From assembly GCF_016812035.1 (NCBI RefSeq), contig NZ_CP069178.1, positions 310,001 through 374,000 of the forward strand: DNA of 64,000 bases, read 5' to 3'. The DNA comes from Bulleidia sp. zg-1006. Lineage in GTDB: Bacteria > Bacillota_I > Bacilli_A > Erysipelotrichales > Erysipelotrichaceae. The notes below the pieces were generated by a model. The model saw only the letters and a program-made list of their open reading frames with translations. It did not search any database and had not been told where the DNA came from. This document shows, one piece after another, positions 53,120-63,265 of the stretch; the first letter of the stretch is position 1, and every line of letters starts with the position of its first letter. A program made the translations under genes and the position numbers.

Positions 53120-53146
53120 GTCTTGCTTTCAAGCAAGGCTTTTTGC
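53120..53146 (+). terminator. Terminator after the M18 aminopeptidase
   Basis: Stem GTCTTGC / GCAAGGC (one G-U pair), followed by five Ts. Confidence 0.65.
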
Positions 53147-53160
53147 AAAAAGGATGGGGT

Positions 53161-54423
53161 ATGAGTCGTTTATTTTATTTTGTTCGTCATGGTCAAACGT
53201 ATTTTAATTTACGTTTACAGCTACAAGGTCGTTGTGATTCCCCTTTGACACCATTGGGAATTCAACAAGCCGAAAAAAGTGCCAAGGTATTATCAGGTCA
53301 ATTTTTTGATTGTGCCTTTGCTTCTCCGGCTGGAAGAGTGCGTGAAACAGCGGATATTTTATTGAAGAACCGTCAAGTTAAATTGACATATTTAGAAGAT
53401 TTACAAGAGCCAAACTTCGGCATAATGGAAGGTCGTCAAGTAGAAGACCAAGACTTAATGCAAAAATGTTTTGGTAGCTTGGATTTTGAACAAGCTGGTG
53501 GAGAGGGTAAAGAAGAACTTCGTTTAAGAACAGAAAAGGTCTTTCAAGAAATTCTCTCCCAAACGAAAAAGAATGATCGAATTTTAATTGTTTCCCATGG
53601 GATTATGTCCATGGCATTTATGTCTTACATTTTGAAGTTAGATATGTTAGCGTATCGGCAAGCTTGTTTAGATGAAGGCAGGGTGTTTATGCCAAATGCC
53701 GGCATTCTAATCTTCCAAGAGGATCACGGAAAAGTAAGCTTAATTCAAAAGCCATGTGAAGCGAAGGACTTATGTTTACCAAAGAAAGATAAAACGATTG
53801 ATATTTTCTATGTTCGACATGGACAAACACTATTTAACCTAAGACATCAAGTACAAGGTCGAAGTGATGCGCCTTTAACGGACTTAGGTATCGAACAAGC
53901 CATTCAAGCCCAACAAGCCTTAAAGAATAAACAGTTTTCAAAAGCTTATGTGTCTTATGCAAAAAGAGCTGTAGATACGGCTAAGATTGTGTTGGCTGGT
54001 CATGATACCGAAATTTCTATTGAAAAAAACCTACAAGAAATGAATTTTGGTGATTTGGAAGGAAGATTAGTTGATGAAGCTATCTTAAAAGAACTGTATG
54101 CTTGTCATCAAAATCAAGAGAATTTTTTAAATCATCAAGGCGAAAACTTAGGAGCTGTAAAAACACGCTGGCAATCGATTTTAGAAAAAGTGTATTTTGA
54201 AAATCAAGATGGTGATCAAGTCTTATTTGTAGGGCATGGTACCATGTATGCGATTATGGTCGCTTATTTATTAAAGACGGACCGTCTTGGTTTAGAAGCC
54301 TATTGTAAACAACGTGGTCAGCAGTATTCCTATAATGGTGGAATTGCTCGTTTCCAATTGAATAAAGACGGCATTCATTTAGTTCAACTCATGCAAGATC
54401 CAAAGACTTATTTACACGAATAA
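53161..54423 (+). CDS. Tandem histidine phosphatase (two PGM-like domains)
   Basis: A 420-residue cytoplasmic protein made of two phosphoglycerate-mutase-like phosphatase domains: one at about 1-200 (YFVRHGQTYFNLR; second catalytic His in VSHGIMS) and one at about 215-420 (YVRHGQTLFNLR; VGHGTMY). Both domains keep both catalytic His residues and the acidic EPNFG/EMNFG loop, so both may work. They are clearly similar, suggesting internal duplication. The substrate is unknown. The start is ATG 53161, after AAAGGATGGGG; an earlier TTG overlaps the hairpin. Single-domain proteins are the rule in the family. Confidence 0.85.
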   Translation: MSRLFYFVRHGQTYFNLRLQLQGRCDSPLTPLGIQQAEKSAKVLSGQFFDCAFASPAGRVRETADILLKNRQVKLTYLEDLQEPNFGIMEGRQVEDQDLMQKCFGSLDFEQAGGEGKEELRLRTEKVFQEILSQTKKNDRILIVSHGIMSMAFMSYILKLDMLAYRQACLDEGRVFMPNAGILIFQEDHGKVSLIQKPCEAKDLCLPKKDKTIDIFYVRHGQTLFNLRHQVQGRSDAPLTDLGIEQAIQAQQALKNKQFSKAYVSYAKRAVDTAKIVLAGHDTEISIEKNLQEMNFGDLEGRLVDEAILKELYACHQNQENFLNHQGENLGAVKTRWQSILEKVYFENQDGDQVLFVGHGTMYAIMVAYLLKTDRLGLEAYCKQRGQQYSYNGGIARFQLNKDGIHLVQLMQDPKTYLHE

Positions 54424-54488
54424 GTCTTTTTTTATGGAAGGAATTACTCATCTTTCGGGAAAAAAGAAGTACATAGAAAGAGGTGTAT

Positions 54489-57400
54489 ATGAGAAAAAAG
54501 AAACAAGCAATATGGATTTGGATATTTAGCATTATGGTGAGTTTGGTTTTACCAGTTTATGCAGAACAATTAACGGTTGTTCGTCGCATGGAATATACCG
54601 CTACACCAGGTCCTATAAAAAATCGAGCAAGAGAATATATTAGTTATGTGACCTATCAAGGTCGCCCGGCCATTTGCATAGATCCAAAAAGAGATATGCA
54701 CTTTGGCAATGATTATCACAAAAAAAGTTTAAAAGAAATTATGGGTTCTAATACGGAACGATTGAATCATTTTATGGCTTATGCCTTTGAAAATGGTGTT
54801 GGTGATGGGGATATTAACTATGCGGCAGCGCAAATGTACGCTTGGGCTTTAGTCGGTTACCAACCAAGCATTCAAAAGGGTCCTCATAGTCACCAAGAAG
54901 TTCAAAAGCGAATACAAGAAATTCAAAAGAAAGTTCAAAATTTAGAGAAGAGTGAAATTGAATTAAAAGACTTAACCACAAAACAAGTAGTTATGAAAGT
55001 TCAAGGGAAGCACTTACGTTTTACAAATGCTATATTAGGTCATCGCTATCAAGTCACACGAAAATTAAAGGGTTTTCAATTGAAAAAAGTAGAGGGTGAT
55101 ATTCAAGGCACAATTGTTAAAAACCAATTTGTGTTTACCGTTGATGCTGGCTTTACAAAGAAAAGTAAAAAGCTATCATTGCAAAGTCAGTCTACTAAGA
55201 AGAAAAACTTTGCGCTAATTGGTAAATCCTTGCAGAATTTAATGATTTATGATGGTGAAGAGGTGGAAGGTTTCGATGTTGAAATTATGGCAAAGGGGTA
55301 TCGTCTAGGTATCCGCAAAGAAGATGTTGAAACCAAGCATCCACAAGGAGATGTTTCTAATTTTAATGGAACAAAGTACCAGCTTTTAAATAAGGAAGGA
55401 AAGCTATTAGGAACATTTATACTTCAAAATGGAAAGTCTAACTATATTGATAACTTATTGCCGGATGAAACCTACTATTTAAAAGAGATTGTTGCACCAA
55501 TGGGAATGCGTCTGCACCAAGATAAAATTCCTGTTATTGTAAAAAGTGCTGAATTGTCTTCTTTAAAAGAAAACACAAAAACTATTGTTGTTCAAGACCA
55601 AGTGAAAACAGGTACTTTTTCTATACAAAAATATCTGTCTAATTCAGAAGAAAGTGCTTTTTTACCTCCGGAGGAAAAGGCGGAATTTATCGCCATTCTC
55701 TCGAAACATGTTCAAAAGTATGGAGGCTTTGCACAAGCAAGAAAGCATTTAAACAAATTCAATCCGAAAGAATACGCTATTTTAACAACGGATGAAAAAG
55801 GCTATGCAAAAAGTTCTGAATTGGCTTATGGAAGTTATGAAATTAGACAAACCAAAGCCATGAATGAAGAAATTGAACAATACCAAAGTCCTTTCTTTTT
55901 CACAGTTCAAGAAGATCACCAACACCAATCTTTTGTTTTGAAAAATGTGAGTAAGAACTATTATTTGCGCATTTTAAAATTGGATAAAGACACGAAACAA
56001 AGCATTCAGAAAAGTTCCGCTACCTTTCGCATTACTCGTATAGAAAATGAAAAAGGACAAGCAGTAAGAGAAGTGATCACACAAAGAATCGGCTCGAAAC
56101 TATATTCTTTATTTTCAACAAATTCAAAAGGCTTACTTCAAACTAGTTGGCAAGATGCAAAGAATTCCTACGGAGAATTGATTTTACCTTTAGCTTTACC
56201 GGCGGGCAAATATGAAATAGAAGAAGTGGAAAGTCCAAAAGGTTATGAAAAAGGATTTAAAAAAATTGTTGTATTGAATCAGAATACGGTTGAGGAAAAG
56301 GGAAAAAATACAGTACTAATTCCAATTGAAAATAAGGGAAAGTACGCTTCTTTTCACTTGCAGAAAAAGTGGGATGAAAGAGTAAATGAGGATAACTTTG
56401 CTGAAAAGGATTTCCCAAAGATTCAATTTGAATTAAGAGCGAAAGAAGATATTTATGCGAATAGTGATGGGACTAGAGTTATGAAGAAAGGAGATTTAGC
56501 GAAGAATATTTTTGGTCAAGAGGTAGGCTCTTTCTTTTTAGATAAAAAGGGAAAAGTGGATTTAAATTATTTGCATTGTGGTAAGTATGAATTAAAGGAG
56601 GTTCAAGTTGCGAAGGGTGTAGAACTGGACCAGCAAACGAGAACAATTGAATTAAGTGAAAAACCTTATTTTTTCCAAATGAAGAATTCGTTTACGAGAA
56701 TTGAATTTTCTAAGATGGATGAAAATGGAAAAGAGGTACAAGGCGCTGAATTGGTTTTAAAGGATGAAAATGGGGCTAAGATTTCAAGTTGGTATTCTAA
56801 AAAAGAGGCACATTGCATTCAAGGTTTAGAAAAAGGAAGAACTTACATTTTAGAAGAAAGAGTTGCGCCAAAGGGATATTCCTTTGCTAAAAATAGTTCT
56901 TTTAGATTAAAAGAGGATGGTTCTATTACGAAAGTTCAGATGATGGATGGTCATTTGGATGTTCGTATTCAAAAAGTGGATGAATTTGGTCATGGTGTTA
57001 CAGGTGCTAAGTTACAACTTTTAGATGAAAAGAGAGAGAAGGTGTTAAAGGAATGGGTTTCGGATGGTAAAGATTGGAATGTGTCCTCACTTTTAAAGGC
57101 AGATAGTCGTTATTGGATTCATGAAGTGGAAACACCATTTGGTTATCATAGTCAAGAAGATCAACTAATCCATATTTCAAAATATGCGAAACCAATTCGT
57201 ATTTCCTTTTTAAATCAAACGAAGAAAGTACGTCTTCAATTGGAAAAAAGAGAGAAAGGTAGTCAACATCATTTACTGGCAAACGCGCATTATCGTGTTT
57301 TTCATAAGAATGGAAAAGCATTAAAGGATGAAACAGGTGCTTTTGTGGATTTGATTAGTAATGAGCAAGGAAAAGCAGAGAGGGAGGTTCCTTATGCAAA

Positions 57401-57644
57401 AGATGGGTATTTCATTAGGGAATTGAAAGCACCAAAGGGTTATGAAGTGGATGTGAACCCAATCCCAGTTCATATTGAAAAGGATTATTCATTTAATCAA
57501 AAACAAGTAATCTCTTTAAGAGTGGAGGATAAGAAAAAGACTTTAGTGAAAACAGGGGATAAGCCTGGTTATTGGTGGTATTTTATTTTATCGGTATTTT
57601 TATTAGGTATAATTTTCACTTTGCAATTGAAAAGACTGACTTGA
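54489..57644 (+). CDS. Large sortase-anchored adhesin, thioester-like plus isopeptide domains
   Basis: A 1,051-residue exported wall protein. Signal peptide about 1-25. Residues about 30-150 resemble a thioester adhesion domain: candidate Cys in RPAICIDP and Gln in YAAAQMYAW, the pair that forms the covalent host-binding bond in relatives. A Lys-rich helical linker follows, then five to seven SpaA/Cna-B-like domains (e.g. NGTKYQLLNKEGKLLGTF, FSIQKYLSNSEE, FHLQKKWDERVN, IEFSKMDENGKEV, VRIQKVDEFGHGV, VRLQLEKREKG), each with the Lys and Glu positions of isopeptide domains. The end has LVKTGDKPG (LPxTG-like), a membrane helix and KRLT. The start is ATG 54489, after AAGAGG. Backbone-type codon use. 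Confidence 0.82.
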   Translation: MRKKKQAIWIWIFSIMVSLVLPVYAEQLTVVRRMEYTATPGPIKNRAREYISYVTYQGRPAICIDPKRDMHFGNDYHKKSLKEIMGSNTERLNHFMAYAFENGVGDGDINYAAAQMYAWALVGYQPSIQKGPHSHQEVQKRIQEIQKKVQNLEKSEIELKDLTTKQVVMKVQGKHLRFTNAILGHRYQVTRKLKGFQLKKVEGDIQGTIVKNQFVFTVDAGFTKKSKKLSLQSQSTKKKNFALIGKSLQNLMIYDGEEVEGFDVEIMAKGYRLGIRKEDVETKHPQGDVSNFNGTKYQLLNKEGKLLGTFILQNGKSNYIDNLLPDETYYLKEIVAPMGMRLHQDKIPVIVKSAELSSLKENTKTIVVQDQVKTGTFSIQKYLSNSEESAFLPPEEKAEFIAILSKHVQKYGGFAQARKHLNKFNPKEYAILTTDEKGYAKSSELAYGSYEIRQTKAMNEEIEQYQSPFFFTVQEDHQHQSFVLKNVSKNYYLRILKLDKDTKQSIQKSSATFRITRIENEKGQAVREVITQRIGSKLYSLFSTNSKGLLQTSWQDAKNSYGELILPLALPAGKYEIEEVESPKGYEKGFKKIVVLNQNTVEEKGKNTVLIPIENKGKYASFHLQKKWDERVNEDNFAEKDFPKIQFELRAKEDIYANSDGTRVMKKGDLAKNIFGQEVGSFFLDKKGKVDLNYLHCGKYELKEVQVAKGVELDQQTRTIELSEKPYFFQMKNSFTRIEFSKMDENGKEVQGAELVLKDENGAKISSWYSKKEAHCIQGLEKGRTYILEERVAPKGYSFAKNSSFRLKEDGSITKVQMMDGHLDVRIQKVDEFGHGVTGAKLQLLDEKREKVLKEWVSDGKDWNVSSLLKADSRYWIHEVETPFGYHSQEDQLIHISKYAKPIRISFLNQTKKVRLQLEKREKGSQHHLLANAHYRVFHKNGKALKDETGAFVDLISNEQGKAEREVPYAKDGYFIRELKAPKGYEVDVNPIPVHIEKDYSFNQKQVISLRVEDKKKTLVKTGDKPGYWWYFILSVFLLGIIFTLQLKRLT

Positions 57645-57811: not shown

Positions 57812-59959
57812 ATGAAGAAAGTTGTTAATGGACTTTTGGCGGTCGGTATAGCTGTATCTCTTGTTGCTTGTTCGAGTTATTCAAAATATAAGCCCGGAAC
57901 ATACAGTGCTACTTCAAAAGGACATAGTAGTGAGGTAAAAGTAACAGCTGAATTTTCAAAGAATAAGATTGAAAAAGTAACAGTTGACGCAAGTGGAGAA
58001 ACAGCTTCTATTGGTCAAGCTGCGGTTGAGCAACTGGTTAAGAATATTCTATCCAAACAAAGTGGTGAATTTGATGGTGTAACGGGTGCGACTGAAACAA
58101 GTGATGCGGTTAGAAGAGCTTTAAAAGCAAGCATCAATCAGGCAAGTGTTAAGGATGGTGTTTATAAAGCTATTGCGAATTCATTTTCCGTCACAGGACA
58201 AATGAAGGGTGAAGTAACAATTGCGAATGGTAGAATTAAAGATGTGAAAATTAGTGAAGAAAGTGATAGTACTACAGGACAATGGTTTGAACAAGCTAAA
58301 ACAAAGTTCATTCCTCGTTTATTAGAAAACCAATCCCTAGCGACAGATTCCGTTACCGGAGCAACGACTTCCTCCGGTGCTATTCGTAGTATTGTATCTT
58401 CTGCTATTGAACAGGCTGGTGGTAAGAGCGATGAATGGTATACACCAGTTGAAAAGAAAAAAGATACAGTGAAGCTAGAAGGTTATGATGTAGTTGTTGT
58501 TGGTTTAGGTGGATCTGGTATTCTATCTTACGCTAGTGCGGCGGATAATGGTGCTAAGGTGTTTGGTTTTGATGCGGCAGCACAAATTGGGGGTAATTCA
58601 GCTTCCGTGTATGGACCAATGGCTTTAAATTCTAAGAACTTAGCGAAAAAATACAATGGTGGTAAAGACTATATTTCAACCGATGAAGTTTATCAAACTT
58701 GGTTGAAGTATGTCGGTACAGATAAAAAAGCCGATGTCATCAAAGAAGCAGTTGAACAATCGGGAACAGCTTTGGATTATTACATGGATAAATATGACTT
58801 TTCTTTTGATGGTATGGGTGGATTGGTCGGTTCCTTCGTTGTTCCAACATGGACAAAATTATGGACTGTTTATACCGCTGATAAAGCCAATAAAAAGTGG
58901 TATACATTTGGACCTGATCACACATTCCAATTCACGCATGCTTTAGAAAAAGCAAAGGCGAAGAATGAAAAGAATGATTACAAGTTAGAATTAAGCGCAA
59001 AAGAATTATTGAAGGATAATAAGGGAAATGTGACGGGAGTTAAGGCTGTTTCTTATGATGGCACAACTTATGAAATCTATGGTAAATCAGTCATTCTGGC
59101 AACGGGTGGTTTCTTAGGAAATGAAGAAATGCTAAAGGAAACATATGGTTCTAGTATTCGTCCAATTGGTGATACTGTGAATAAAGGATCCGGCATTAAG
59201 ATGGGTCAATCGGTAGGTGGTGCTACTTATGCAATGAAGACATTACCGATGGTTCATGTATCTCAAGTTCCAAATATCATTCGTGATAATTCTTTAACGG
59301 CAGATCAAAAAGCTATTTTATCAGCTATCGCTACAACATTAGATGGTAAACAAATAGATGAGACAGGTAAGGTACTGGGAAAGGCGGATAAGTCAGGTAC
59401 AGAAAACAGTGAATTGACAGTGGGTATTGTTTATACACCCGGTTTCCATTTCTATAATGTTTATAGCCAAGAAGAAATTGATGCAATTAAGACAAAGGGA
59501 TTGAGTGAAAAGACAGCTAAGGTTTCAATCTTCGGTTTAGGTCAAGGCGGTAAAGTTCCTATGGCTAATACACCAATTAAAGACATTGATAAAATTATCG
59601 AAGTTGCTATGAATACCAATAATGCTTGGAAAGGAACAGCTTCTGAATTGGCGAAGAAGTTGAATATGAAAGAAGAAGAGTTGGTCAAGTCTTTAGGTGA
59701 TAAGGATAAGAACTATTACTTATTTGAAAGTGTTGCGTATTCTTATGGTACAGTTGGTGGTTTAGATGTGAATAAGAATATGAATGTCTTAAGGAAAGAT
59801 GGTAGTCCAATTGTCAACTTATTTGCGGTTGGTCAGGATTCAGAAGGAGTTGCTAATAAAGATGGTGAAGCTTATACACCATGGGGTGGTCAAGCTCAAT
59901 CTTGGACTTTTGTTTCTGGTAAAATTGCCGGTGAACAAGCAGCTAAATTAGCGAAGTAA
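57812..59959 (+). CDS. Extracellular flavinylated reductase lipoprotein (fumarate/urocanate reductase-like)
   Basis: A 715-residue lipoprotein: signal peptide with lipobox LVAC (Cys20). Two FMN-binding domains follow (about 28-110 and 115-205), each ending in a flavin-transferase target motif (DGVTGATETS and DSVTGATTSS), where FMN is attached to the Thr in relatives. The main domain (about 220-715) is FAD-dependent: VVVVGLGGSGILSYASAA binds FAD, and ATGGFLGNEEML and the C-terminal LFAVGQDSEG are typical of fumarate-reductase-like flavoproteins. Such enzymes reduce an external acceptor such as fumarate, urocanate or a cinnamate; the acceptor is not readable. AAGGAG precedes the ATG. Confidence 0.9.
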   Translation: MKKVVNGLLAVGIAVSLVACSSYSKYKPGTYSATSKGHSSEVKVTAEFSKNKIEKVTVDASGETASIGQAAVEQLVKNILSKQSGEFDGVTGATETSDAVRRALKASINQASVKDGVYKAIANSFSVTGQMKGEVTIANGRIKDVKISEESDSTTGQWFEQAKTKFIPRLLENQSLATDSVTGATTSSGAIRSIVSSAIEQAGGKSDEWYTPVEKKKDTVKLEGYDVVVVGLGGSGILSYASAADNGAKVFGFDAAAQIGGNSASVYGPMALNSKNLAKKYNGGKDYISTDEVYQTWLKYVGTDKKADVIKEAVEQSGTALDYYMDKYDFSFDGMGGLVGSFVVPTWTKLWTVYTADKANKKWYTFGPDHTFQFTHALEKAKAKNEKNDYKLELSAKELLKDNKGNVTGVKAVSYDGTTYEIYGKSVILATGGFLGNEEMLKETYGSSIRPIGDTVNKGSGIKMGQSVGGATYAMKTLPMVHVSQVPNIIRDNSLTADQKAILSAIATTLDGKQIDETGKVLGKADKSGTENSELTVGIVYTPGFHFYNVYSQEEIDAIKTKGLSEKTAKVSIFGLGQGGKVPMANTPIKDIDKIIEVAMNTNNAWKGTASELAKKLNMKEEELVKSLGDKDKNYYLFESVAYSYGTVGGLDVNKNMNVLRKDGSPIVNLFAVGQDSEGVANKDGEAYTPWGGQAQSWTFVSGKIAGEQAAKLAK

Positions 59960-60139: not shown

Positions 60140-61426
60140 ATGAGTTTTAAAGATAAAGTTATGGAATTTTTTGGTAAAGTCGGCGAAATTTTTGGTAAAG
60201 TCGGACAAAATGTTTACCTAAAGACCATTTCCAACACAATGATGGGTACGTTAGGTCCGGTTATGGTTGGTTCTGTGGCTGTATTGTTTGCGGCTTTTCC
60301 GGTCGTTTCTGTAAAGACATTCTTTGCGAATGTTGGTTTAACACCAATTTTCTTAGCTATCAATTCAGTCACAATTGGTGCGTTGGCACTTTATGTTTCC
60401 TTTTTAATGGCAAAGAATTTAGTTACATTTAAGCTAGCAAGTGATGATGGTGCTATGGCAGGTGCCTTATCCTTAATGGCATTCTTAATCATTACGCCAT
60501 TAGCTACTATGAATAAGGCGACAGTTTTACCTACTCAATGGTTAGGTGCTGCGGGAGTGTTCTCTGCTATGATTATTGGTGCAGTTATAGGTCGTATTTA
60601 TGTTTTATTCCAAGAAAAAGGATGGACAATCAAGATGCCTGCTTCTGTTCCTCCAAATGTATCGAAAGCATTCGACTCTTTATTTCCAGCCTTCATTATT
60701 GCGGCTATATTTGTTGTGATTCGTTTATGTTTCCAAGCGACAAGCTATGGTAATATGCATGCCTTTATTTATGGTATTATCCAAGCTCCATTACAAGGTA
60801 TTGGTGCTTCTTTACCAGCGACGATTTTAACAAGCTTTTTGATGCAATTATTATGGTTCTTCGGTATTCATGGTACCAATGTTATCAATCCTATTGTTCA
60901 GCCGGTTCGTTTGGCACTAGATGCTCAAAACACGGCTGCTTTAGCAGCTGGTACAGCCTTGCCAAATATCGTTGGTAATGCGTTCTTCTCCATTGTATGT
61001 TGGGGTGGTTCGGCTTTAGGTTTAATTTTCTGGATGTTAAGATCCAAGAGTAAACAATATCGTGAATTAGGTAAGATTGCTTTGGTTCCTGCTTTATTTG
61101 GTATCACAGAACCAGTTATCTTCGGTACACCATTAGTATTTAATTTCAATTTCTTCTTCCCATTTGTTTTAAATAACTCAATCAATTTAACGTTAGCTTA
61201 CTTCTTAACGAAGATGGGAATCGTTGCTAGGTGTGCAGGTATTCAACCTATCTTTGGCTTACCTTTAGGATTTCACGCAATGGTAGGAGGCAGTTTATCC
61301 ATTATCATCTTACAATTATTCATTCAGTTAGTACTTTCACCAATTGAGTGGTATCCTTGGTTTAAGAAGGCTGAAAGAGAAGCACTTAAACAAGAACAAG
61401 CCACTGAGGCGGAGGTAGCTAAGTAA
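60140..61426 (+). CDS. PTS sugar transporter EIIC subunit (lactose/cellobiose type)
   Basis: A 428-residue membrane permease with about ten helices of the PTS EIIC lactose/cellobiose family. It has the N-terminal amphipathic stretch, the LWFFGIHGTNVINPIVQP loop and the FGITEPVIFGTPLVFN sugar-binding loop with the conserved Glu. It lets a sugar enter with phosphorylation, but no EIIA or EIIB is encoded here, so these must come from elsewhere. The beta-glucuronidase gene follows, so a beta-glucuronide substrate is inferred. GAAAGGGG precedes the ATG. Confidence 0.88.
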   Translation: MSFKDKVMEFFGKVGEIFGKVGQNVYLKTISNTMMGTLGPVMVGSVAVLFAAFPVVSVKTFFANVGLTPIFLAINSVTIGALALYVSFLMAKNLVTFKLASDDGAMAGALSLMAFLIITPLATMNKATVLPTQWLGAAGVFSAMIIGAVIGRIYVLFQEKGWTIKMPASVPPNVSKAFDSLFPAFIIAAIFVVIRLCFQATSYGNMHAFIYGIIQAPLQGIGASLPATILTSFLMQLLWFFGIHGTNVINPIVQPVRLALDAQNTAALAAGTALPNIVGNAFFSIVCWGGSALGLIFWMLRSKSKQYRELGKIALVPALFGITEPVIFGTPLVFNFNFFFPFVLNNSINLTLAYFLTKMGIVARCAGIQPIFGLPLGFHAMVGGSLSIIILQLFIQLVLSPIEWYPWFKKAEREALKQEQATEAEVAK

Positions 61427-61435
61427 TTATTTCAT

Positions 61436-61461
61436 TGGTCATCTTTGTATGACCATTTTTT
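61436..61461 (+). terminator. Hairpin with T-run between PTS and beta-glucuronidase genes
   Basis: Stem TGGTCAT / ATGACCA with a 6-base loop followed by six Ts. The glucuronidase ribosome site comes directly after, so the hairpin may reduce read-through into the enzyme gene. Confidence 0.75.
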
Positions 61462-61474
61462 AGGAGGGTACACG

Positions 61475-63265
61475 ATGTTACAATTTTCAGAATTATATCC
61501 CGTACAAAATCAAGCACGGCATAAACAATCCTTAAATGGTCTTTGGAAATTTTCTTTGGATCCAAATTCAATAGGTGATGAAGAAAAATGGAAGAATGGT
61601 TTAAAGGAATATGACTATATTCCTGTACCAGCTAGTTTCAATGATTTATACACCGATAAAAAAATCCGTGATTATGTAGGAGATTTTTGGTATGAAACAA
61701 GCATCTTCTACCACCAAAGTGACTTAGATGCGTTCTTACGTTTTGGTTCGGTAACACATCGCTGTGAAATTTTCGTGAATGGAGAAAAAGTTGGTGAACA
61801 TGAGGGTGGTTTCTTACCGGTTGTTGTTCATGTTAAGAAGGCTTTAAAGCCAAATGCGAATAATACAATTGTTGTAAAAGTAAATAATTCATTATCAGAA
61901 GCCAGTCTTCCATGTGGTGCTGTTAAGTATTTGAAAAATGGTCGACCACTAGTTACACCTTATTTTGATTTCTTTAATTATGCTGGTATTCATAGAAATG
62001 TTGACTTTGTCGAAGTTCCTAATCAAGCAATTCAAGACTATGAAACAAGCTTTACTTTAGAAAATGAAAAAGCAATCGTGCATTATTCAGTAAGACAAAA
62101 TAGTGATTGTGATGTCCTTGTGACTTTATTTGATGCTGGTGGAAAAGAAGTTTCTAAAGCAAAAGGAGAAAAAAGCGAGTTGGTTGTTGACCAACCAATA
62201 CTTTGGCAACTTCGAAATGCGTATTTATATACCTTACAAATACAATTAGTAAAAGAGGATACCATAATAGATGAATATAGTCGTCCATTAGGAATTCGTA
62301 GCATTGAAATTAAAGGTGAAACAATCCTTCTAAATGGCAAGAAGATTTATCTAAAAGGCTTTGGTAAGCATGAAGATGCGGAAGTCTTTGGTCGTGGTTT
62401 CAATTATCCAATAATCAAAAGAGATTTTGAATTGATGAAGTGGTCTAATGCGAATAGCTTCCGTACATCACATTATCCTTATGCAGAAGAATGGTATGAT
62501 TTTGCGGATCAAGAAGGGTTTTTAATCATGGATGAAGTTCCGGCTGTCGGTATGATGCGTTCAACTAGAAATGCTGTCGATGCCGGATCTGGAAAAGTAA
62601 CAAATTTCTTTCAAACCGATACGGTGCCGGCTTTATTAAAAAATCATTTAATGGCTGTTGAAGAAATGATACAAAGAGATAAAAATCATCCCTCCGTTAT
62701 TGCGTATAGCTTATTCAATGAACCGGAAACTACAACGAAAGAATCATATGAGTATTTTAAGAAAGTTTTTGAATTTGCTAGAAGCTTGGATAAAACCAGA
62801 CCTTTAACAGGTGCTTTTGAAAAGAACTCTGCTCCGGAATTGGATTATTGTCATGAGCTATGTGATTTTATTTGTTTAAATCGTTATTATGGTTGGTATA
62901 TTTCCGGTGGTGCTGAAATGGAAGATGCGGAGGTTAAATTTAGAGATGAAATGAATCGTTGGCAAGCTAAAAAGTTAAATAAACCATTTGTCTTTACCGA
63001 ATTTGGTACAGATACACTTGGTTCTGAACATAAGTTACCATCGGTAATGTGGAGTCAAGAATACCAAAACGAGTATTACCAAATGAACTTTCAAGTTTTT
63101 GATGATTATGAATTTGTGCAGGGAGAATTAACTTGGAATTTCGCGGACTTCCAAACAGGAGAAGGAGTTTTCCGTGTGAATGGTAACAAGAAAGGTGTGT
63201 TTACCCGCAATCGTCAGCCGAAAGAAGTTGCTTTCATTCTTAAAAAACGCTGGGAAGAGAAATAG
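61475..63265 (+). CDS. uidA: Beta-glucuronidase (GH2)
   Basis: A 596-residue GH2 enzyme. Sugar-binding and Ig-like domains occupy about 1-270, then a TIM barrel. The catalytic acid/base Glu is in SLFNEPET (about 415), and the nucleophile Glu in FTEFGTDT (about 509). NGNKKGVFTRNRQPK (about 568) carries the N-x-K motif that contacts the glucuronate carboxylate and marks true glucuronidases. It releases glucuronate from conjugates. No signal peptide, so it is cytoplasmic and works on imported substrates. The start is ATG 61475, after AGGAGGG; an upstream TTG lies in the hairpin. Confidence 0.93.
   Translation: MLQFSELYPVQNQARHKQSLNGLWKFSLDPNSIGDEEKWKNGLKEYDYIPVPASFNDLYTDKKIRDYVGDFWYETSIFYHQSDLDAFLRFGSVTHRCEIFVNGEKVGEHEGGFLPVVVHVKKALKPNANNTIVVKVNNSLSEASLPCGAVKYLKNGRPLVTPYFDFFNYAGIHRNVDFVEVPNQAIQDYETSFTLENEKAIVHYSVRQNSDCDVLVTLFDAGGKEVSKAKGEKSELVVDQPILWQLRNAYLYTLQIQLVKEDTIIDEYSRPLGIRSIEIKGETILLNGKKIYLKGFGKHEDAEVFGRGFNYPIIKRDFELMKWSNANSFRTSHYPYAEEWYDFADQEGFLIMDEVPAVGMMRSTRNAVDAGSGKVTNFFQTDTVPALLKNHLMAVEEMIQRDKNHPSVIAYSLFNEPETTTKESYEYFKKVFEFARSLDKTRPLTGAFEKNSAPELDYCHELCDFICLNRYYGWYISGGAEMEDAEVKFRDEMNRWQAKKLNKPFVFTEFGTDTLGSEHKLPSVMWSQEYQNEYYQMNFQVFDDYEFVQGELTWNFADFQTGEGVFRVNGNKKGVFTRNRQPKEVAFILKKRWEEK

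Follow-up and report, generated by a model that had tools for sequence, protein, structure and literature searches.

A predicted double-FMN lipoprotein reductase and a variant Rnf operon in Bulleidia sp. zg-1006

Described systems and the lipoprotein gene

Flavinylated reductases that act outside the cytosol form a class that is already known. As described in excerpts of Meheust et al. 2021 (PMC8238504), it includes fumarate-reductase-like proteins with FMN domains, multi-flavinylated members among them, and a multi-flavinylated RnfG; members share with the protein described here a signal or lipid anchor, FMN_bind joined to PF00890, a genomic ApbE and a donor encoded elsewhere. In UrdA (6t85; excerpts of PMC7921117 and PMC10882135), as in our protein, a covalent FMN domain stands ahead of the FAD domain, although UrdA carries only one FMN. 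Its contacts Arg411, His520 and Arg560 are conserved across fumarate reductases, and Fcc3 Arg401/402 corresponds to UrdA Arg411 (excerpts of PMC7921117). The proteins of PMC10339131, in which crystal structures place the flavin covalently on threonine, likewise bear more than one covalently flavinylated domain of this family; they carry three and four FMNs respectively, and the excerpts of that source do not mention an FAD catalytic domain. The published ApbE motif is D-x-x-[S/T]-G-A-[S/T] (excerpts of PMC12052999). VprA is a vinyl phenol reductase under the control of a LysR regulator (excerpts of PMC10295242). Within this framework, what is new about the protein described here is its distinct pocket: it belongs to a subfamily of its own, without the canonical fumarate or urocanate residues. 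More tentatively, the Rnf variant of the same genome is a further new point.

The gene lies at 57812..59959 on the + strand of the window, the 64,000-nucleotide stretch of DNA that was analysed (C1:310001-374000 of a one-contig genome of 1,545,033 bases). The ORF list and Pfam give a 715-aa double-FMN lipoprotein reductase whose N-terminus is MKKVVNGLLAVGIAVSLVACSS. A signal peptide ending at lipobox Cys20 (LVAC) was read from the sequence at 57812..57871 (+), and Cys20 is nearly invariant in alignment A2, which holds 16 orthologs, the target included. There follow FMN_bind domain 1 (57920..58135, +), found by Pfam and by alignment to the crystallised FMN domain 8p2b (E 1.3e-6), FMN_bind domain 2 (58196..58411, +; Pfam), and the FAD_binding_2 catalytic domain (residues 226-679; 58487..59848, +; Pfam). 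The earlier note had claimed an attachment motif in each FMN domain, and both were confirmed at the domain ends: DGVTGAT (D88-GVTGA-T94; 58073..58093, +) and DSVTGAT (D179-SVTGA-T185; 58346..58366, +). Both match the published pattern and predict FMN on Thr94 and Thr185. Shuffling the protein produced two or more motifs in 1 of 20,000 shuffles and one motif in 198 of 20,000, and no other window stop-to-stop frame of at least 100 aa (21,409 aa in total) bore a motif. With FMN_bind and FAD_binding_2 domains, both motifs, a lipobox and an ApbE in the genome, the protein falls among the flavinylated extracytosolic fumarate-reductase-like reductases, and is best read as an exported lipoprotein with two covalent FMNs plus FAD. 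An AlphaFold model built from two sequences (the window's and that of B. extructa, L032) had a pLDDT of 32.

A recent origin of the two FMN domains by duplication was rejected, as they are 30% identical and a FastTree of FMN domains separates them. In this tree, which has many weak forks, domain 2 clusters with the equivalent domain of all 13 relatives used, and domain 1 with that of the six closer relatives. Domain 2, which adjoins the FAD domain, falls among the single FMN domains of the paralogs, with domain 1 apart (again with several weak forks), so that we take domain 1 to be an outer relay that was added. On an L. plantarum plasmid, another FAD-binding protein (L107:1952-3796) has two C-terminal motifs, DAESGAS and DAVSGAS, with no obvious signal and the domain order reversed.

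Ortholog searches covered 60 genomes of the genus and 315 of the order. Fifteen other near-full-length orthologs (48-83% identity) entered A2, and ApbE is present in all 15 other genomes with close orthologs. All 16 other members of the orthologous clade (those 15 and G238) have both flavinylation motifs, as do five of the seven relatives that are more distant; the remaining two, G059b and G314, have one. The comparison also took in six paralogs from the same genome. At least 7 of 392 genomes of a phylum sample gave a match at E<=1e-100, a lower bound because at most two candidates were scored per genome, and all were from family f1. Among the genomes sampled, the subfamily is confined to that family. 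Bulleidia extructa W1219, the only named relative that was found, is taken to be genome G046.

The catalytic pocket and its nearest relatives

Fumarate reductase sites are given here in what we take to be the Fcc3 numbering, Arg402, His504 and Arg544. Equivalents of these residues are absent from the target in profile and MAFFT alignments, in which the [T/R]RD position likewise lacks an Arg. The urocanate reductase residues Arg411, His520, Arg560 and Tyr373 had no equivalents in a sequence alignment. This mapping rests on sequence, the clamp region aligns poorly, and the residue comparison took in 18 of 40 rows. Tyr645 (59744..59746, +), invariant in A2, takes the position of His504 in the alignment. 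The NRLGG segment that holds Arg544 is replaced by Tyr688-Thr-Pro-Trp691 (59873..59884, +), for which the exact column register is uncertain; Tyr688, Pro690 and Trp691 are invariant in A2. Past residue 169 there is no invariant Arg across the 16 sequences, and the target itself has three Arg in residues 222-715, at 450, 491 and 661. A KstD-like pocket, in which Tyr688 may match the KstD-like Tyr, was set aside because the alignments disagreed on the column register.

In a 40-row tree the target clade of 24 rows had support of 100/100 and grouped at 95/89 with the paralog L015:4805-6661 and L. plantarum VprA (L106:1542-3002; 783.8 bits on the VprA equivalog NF053717, cut-off 600). VprA still grouped with the target clade when the paralog was dropped (98/88), as did the paralog when VprA was dropped (97/92), and removal of seven other rows, mostly long, raised support for the grouping of both with the target clade to 100/98. 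The target lay outside the fumarate/urocanate group in all four trees, although every tree run warned of long branches meeting, with few named enzymes sampled. Because named sequences are so few, we take VprA, the nearest named relative in these small trees, as a lead and not as a filing. Membership of the VprA family was rejected (96.8 bits for the target against the NF053717 cut-off of 600). VprA resembles the target in having an aromatic residue (Phe) at the His504 position, where the paralog L015:4805-6661 has Trp, and in the canonical Arg not being found. With most loci of the target type it shares an adjoining regulator gene (LysR in L106). Unlike the target, the VprA examined has FAD_binding_2 with no FMN_bind match and, by reading, no signal. 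The groups of gut flavin reductases reportedly defined by Little et al. in 2023 could already include the target subfamily.

Flavin transferase, Rnf operon and electron supply

The earlier note was right that the window contains no apbE and, as regards the RnfD type, no donor gene: the genome's only ApbE match is at C1:1085050 and its sole PF03116 match, RnfD, at C1:1082485, both outside the window. It had proposed looking for both elsewhere in the genome. One ApbE was found there, with the Rnf complex beside it as a candidate donor, so that neither the lack of an ApbE nor the lack of a candidate donor holds for this genome. The donor search of the genome covered PF03116 only. apbE is divergent from the Rnf operon, and genes for two more FMN-FAD lipoproteins flank it.

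The Rnf variant locus (L015:6891-12268, genome C1:1079390-1084767) encodes, on the - strand and with subunit letters assigned from order and Pfam, RnfC (L015:10949-12268), RnfD (L015:9515-10945), which has one FMN_bind domain fused at its C-terminus, RnfG (L015:8604-9506), with two FMN_bind stretches, RnfE (L015:7939-8595) and RnfA (L015:7364-7936). After RnfA come a 64-aa ORF and then a 92-aa RnfB-like ORF. The product of the 64-aa ORF (L015:7170-7364) begins with a hydrophobic stretch and contains a C-x2-C-x4-C motif. Thirteen FMN_bind domains were counted in the genome: nine in seven proteins that also have FAD_binding_2 (the target and L017:5849-8434 holding two each), two in RnfG, one in RnfD and one in a stand-alone 124-aa protein. 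The second double-FMN reductase, L017:5849-8434, is 861 aa long and keeps HHTMGG and NRLGG, and its FMN domains are 47% identical to each other. The terminal FMN_bind domains of RnfD and RnfG are 95% identical over 117 aa and 98% identical over the compared stretch, which points to recent copying or to gene conversion.

We consider it fairly probable that the protein is a flavinylated surface reductase in which electrons would pass from Rnf to the FMN on Thr94, on to the FMN on Thr185 and then to FAD, which would reduce, outside the membrane, an acceptor bound without the Arg-carboxylate clamp. Reduced ferredoxin or NADH would supply the Rnf complex, and the FMN domains of RnfG and RnfD would be the exit for electrons. 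Judging from the motifs and the presence of the gene, ApbE would attach both FMNs. The sequences show the domains, the motifs and their conservation, the ApbE and Rnf genes and, by alignment, the missing residues; flavin loading, location, electron path and acceptor class are inferred. Variant motifs in the domain fused to RnfD in several relatives weaken the RnfD exit route.

When the 92-aa protein was used as query, an RnfB match was found in 88 of 118 order-level genomes, with a short frame (88-150 aa) in 76 and a full one (260-298 aa) in 12. The RnfD match reached the FMN_bind part (query position >=430) in 50 of the 76 short-RnfB genomes and in none of the six full-RnfB genomes with an RnfD match, and the median FMN_bind count was 4 in the former group and 1 in the latter, all in counts that ignore the relatedness of the genomes. 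The short RnfB of G074 may be an artefact, as the frame is full in other genomes of that genus; full frames also occur in two genomes of the window's own genus (G004 and G031). Five more short frames end soon past one CGGCG-x-PGC motif. The 92-aa RnfB of this variant lacks the C-terminal domain of RnfB, which holds two to seven clusters according to excerpts of PMC12174285. The shortened form is not mentioned in the excerpts of PMC12174285 and PMC10979944, which is no proof of novelty; it may nonetheless be more novel than the reductase gene.

By simple hydropathy, a hydrophobic segment follows the RnfD core, between residues 332 and 380, in 11 of 12 loci (without L086). The fused domain varies more. 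The RnfD fusions of L080 and L082 carry exact motifs, and RnfD of L081 (G046) is unfused. Among eight further RnfD tails that were read, the domain is missing in three (L087, L088 and L089) and bears variant motifs in five: DAVSSAT in L083, SLVTGAT and NLVSGAS in L085, DVCAGAT in L086, DTITGST and DTVTGST in L090 and DTVTSAT in L091. Such absences and variants count against a uniform fusion. We offer, as a tentative and rather doubtful proposal, that Rnf of the Erysipelotrichales has been rebuilt as an outward donor, with RnfB reduced to a membrane helix and one Fe-S domain and RnfD gaining an extra helix, by which a fused FMN-type domain would come to lie outside in many genomes; it would feed inducible surface reductases, the target subfamily among them acting on non-carboxylate acceptors. 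If the shortened-RnfB form is such a donor, this would explain how the lineage powers its set of flavinylated reductases.

Gene neighbourhood and competing readings

A regulator directly adjoins the gene in 19 of 24 homologous loci, distributed over clusters cl1 (11), cl5 (4) and cl4 (4); one representative was scanned per cluster and gave MerR, MerR and LysR, respectively. Adjacent regulators of these types are what would be expected of a substrate-induced enzyme. The window gene and that of G046 have no adjacent regulator. Searching six genomes with a profile built from seven regulators gave 276-364 bits in four of them; the best scores in the window's genome (G000) and in G046 were 46 and 50 bits, in the N-terminal part. 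From these weak, mostly N-terminal matches, the regulator seems to have been lost in both.

Downstream of the target are genes for a PTS EIIC and a beta-glucuronidase (674.6 bits, cut-off 544), part of an apparent glucuronide-use cluster (60140-63265 and L020:3303-8576) that, by sequence reading, also has an AraC-type regulator and UxuA/UxuB/UxaC-like genes. From this neighbourhood of PTS EIIC, beta-glucuronidase and glucuronate catabolism, one could suppose that the enzyme reduces the aglycone of a glucuronide. We regard this as highly improbable, since a beta-glucuronidase match (blastp, E 1e-8) occurred in none of the 24 other homologous loci, B. extructa (G046) included, and PTS EIIC matches occurred in two distant loci only, at 25-27% identity; the downstream side ends at a contig end in two of the 24 (L030 and L061). 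Linkage of the target gene to these neighbours was rejected for the same lack of conservation. A role in the respiration of carboxylates, for example fumarate, urocanate or a cinnamate, by way of diverged residues would fit a protein of the same superfamily as Fcc3 and UrdA that has an invariant His482 one column off the position of Fcc3 His365. It would fit, too, the Arg or Lys found at position 491 in 24 of 24 subfamily rows, which counts against a pocket wholly without positive charge and makes an alternative acid or anion binder possible. Absence of the Arg is itself compatible with carboxylates, because a tricarballylate-dehydrogenase-like protein (so named by NCBIfam; 295.9 bits, below the cut-off of 369) also lacks NRLGG, and the substrate of tricarballylate dehydrogenase is a carboxylate. 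Against this stand the absent Arg402/411, His504/520 and Arg544/560 equivalents, the position of the target in the four trees, and paralogs in the same genome with canonical signatures: the fumarate-type set is complete in L016:2252-4099 (IQIHPT, TRD, HHTMGG and NRLGG), and L019:5934-7706 combines the urocanate-type Tyr with RRD, HHTMGG and NRLGG. On balance we judge a carboxylate reductase unlikely. The fumarate, urocanate and cinnamates that the earlier note put forward as acceptors are poorly supported, carboxylate-binding and proton-donating residues being absent by alignment.

The protein might instead be mainly a wire or store that passes electrons to soluble mediators or Fe(III), its FAD domain having minor catalytic weight. 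In its two FMN domains it does resemble the multi-flavinylated proteins for which electron transfer over longer distances has been proposed (excerpts of PMC8238504), yet conservation of the FAD domain is high in the 16 sequences, with its invariant Tyr/Trp set, and a regulator so often adjoins the gene that we think such a role quite improbable. For the surface reductase that we favour, the acceptor is probably not a simple carboxylate. It would most likely be a C=C compound without the usual Arg-carboxylate clamp, perhaps aromatic or enone-like, because Tyr and Trp stand in for the fumarate/urocanate residues and the nearest named relative in the trees is VprA. Anaerobes of the Erysipelotrichaceae may respire small molecules outside the cell. 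The subfamily has a pocket of its own and offers a concrete target for acceptor discovery; the genome, with one ApbE, one RnfD and seven FMN-FAD reductases, is a compact test bed.

Other features of the window were noted in passing. A TTGACA precedes the PTS gene, but it is not among the hits of the promoter scan, which were no more numerous than in shuffled sequence (9 vs 8.6). Just upstream of the target, 54483-57644 encodes a 1053-aa surface-type protein with a C-terminal LVKTGDKPG and a hydrophobic tail, apparently like a sortase-anchored protein of the collagen-adhesin type. The single ORF at 53143-54423 contains, by reading, two consecutive histidine-phosphatase-like (RHG) units, and is matched by both L033:101-1399 and 1396-2658, at 47% and 88%.
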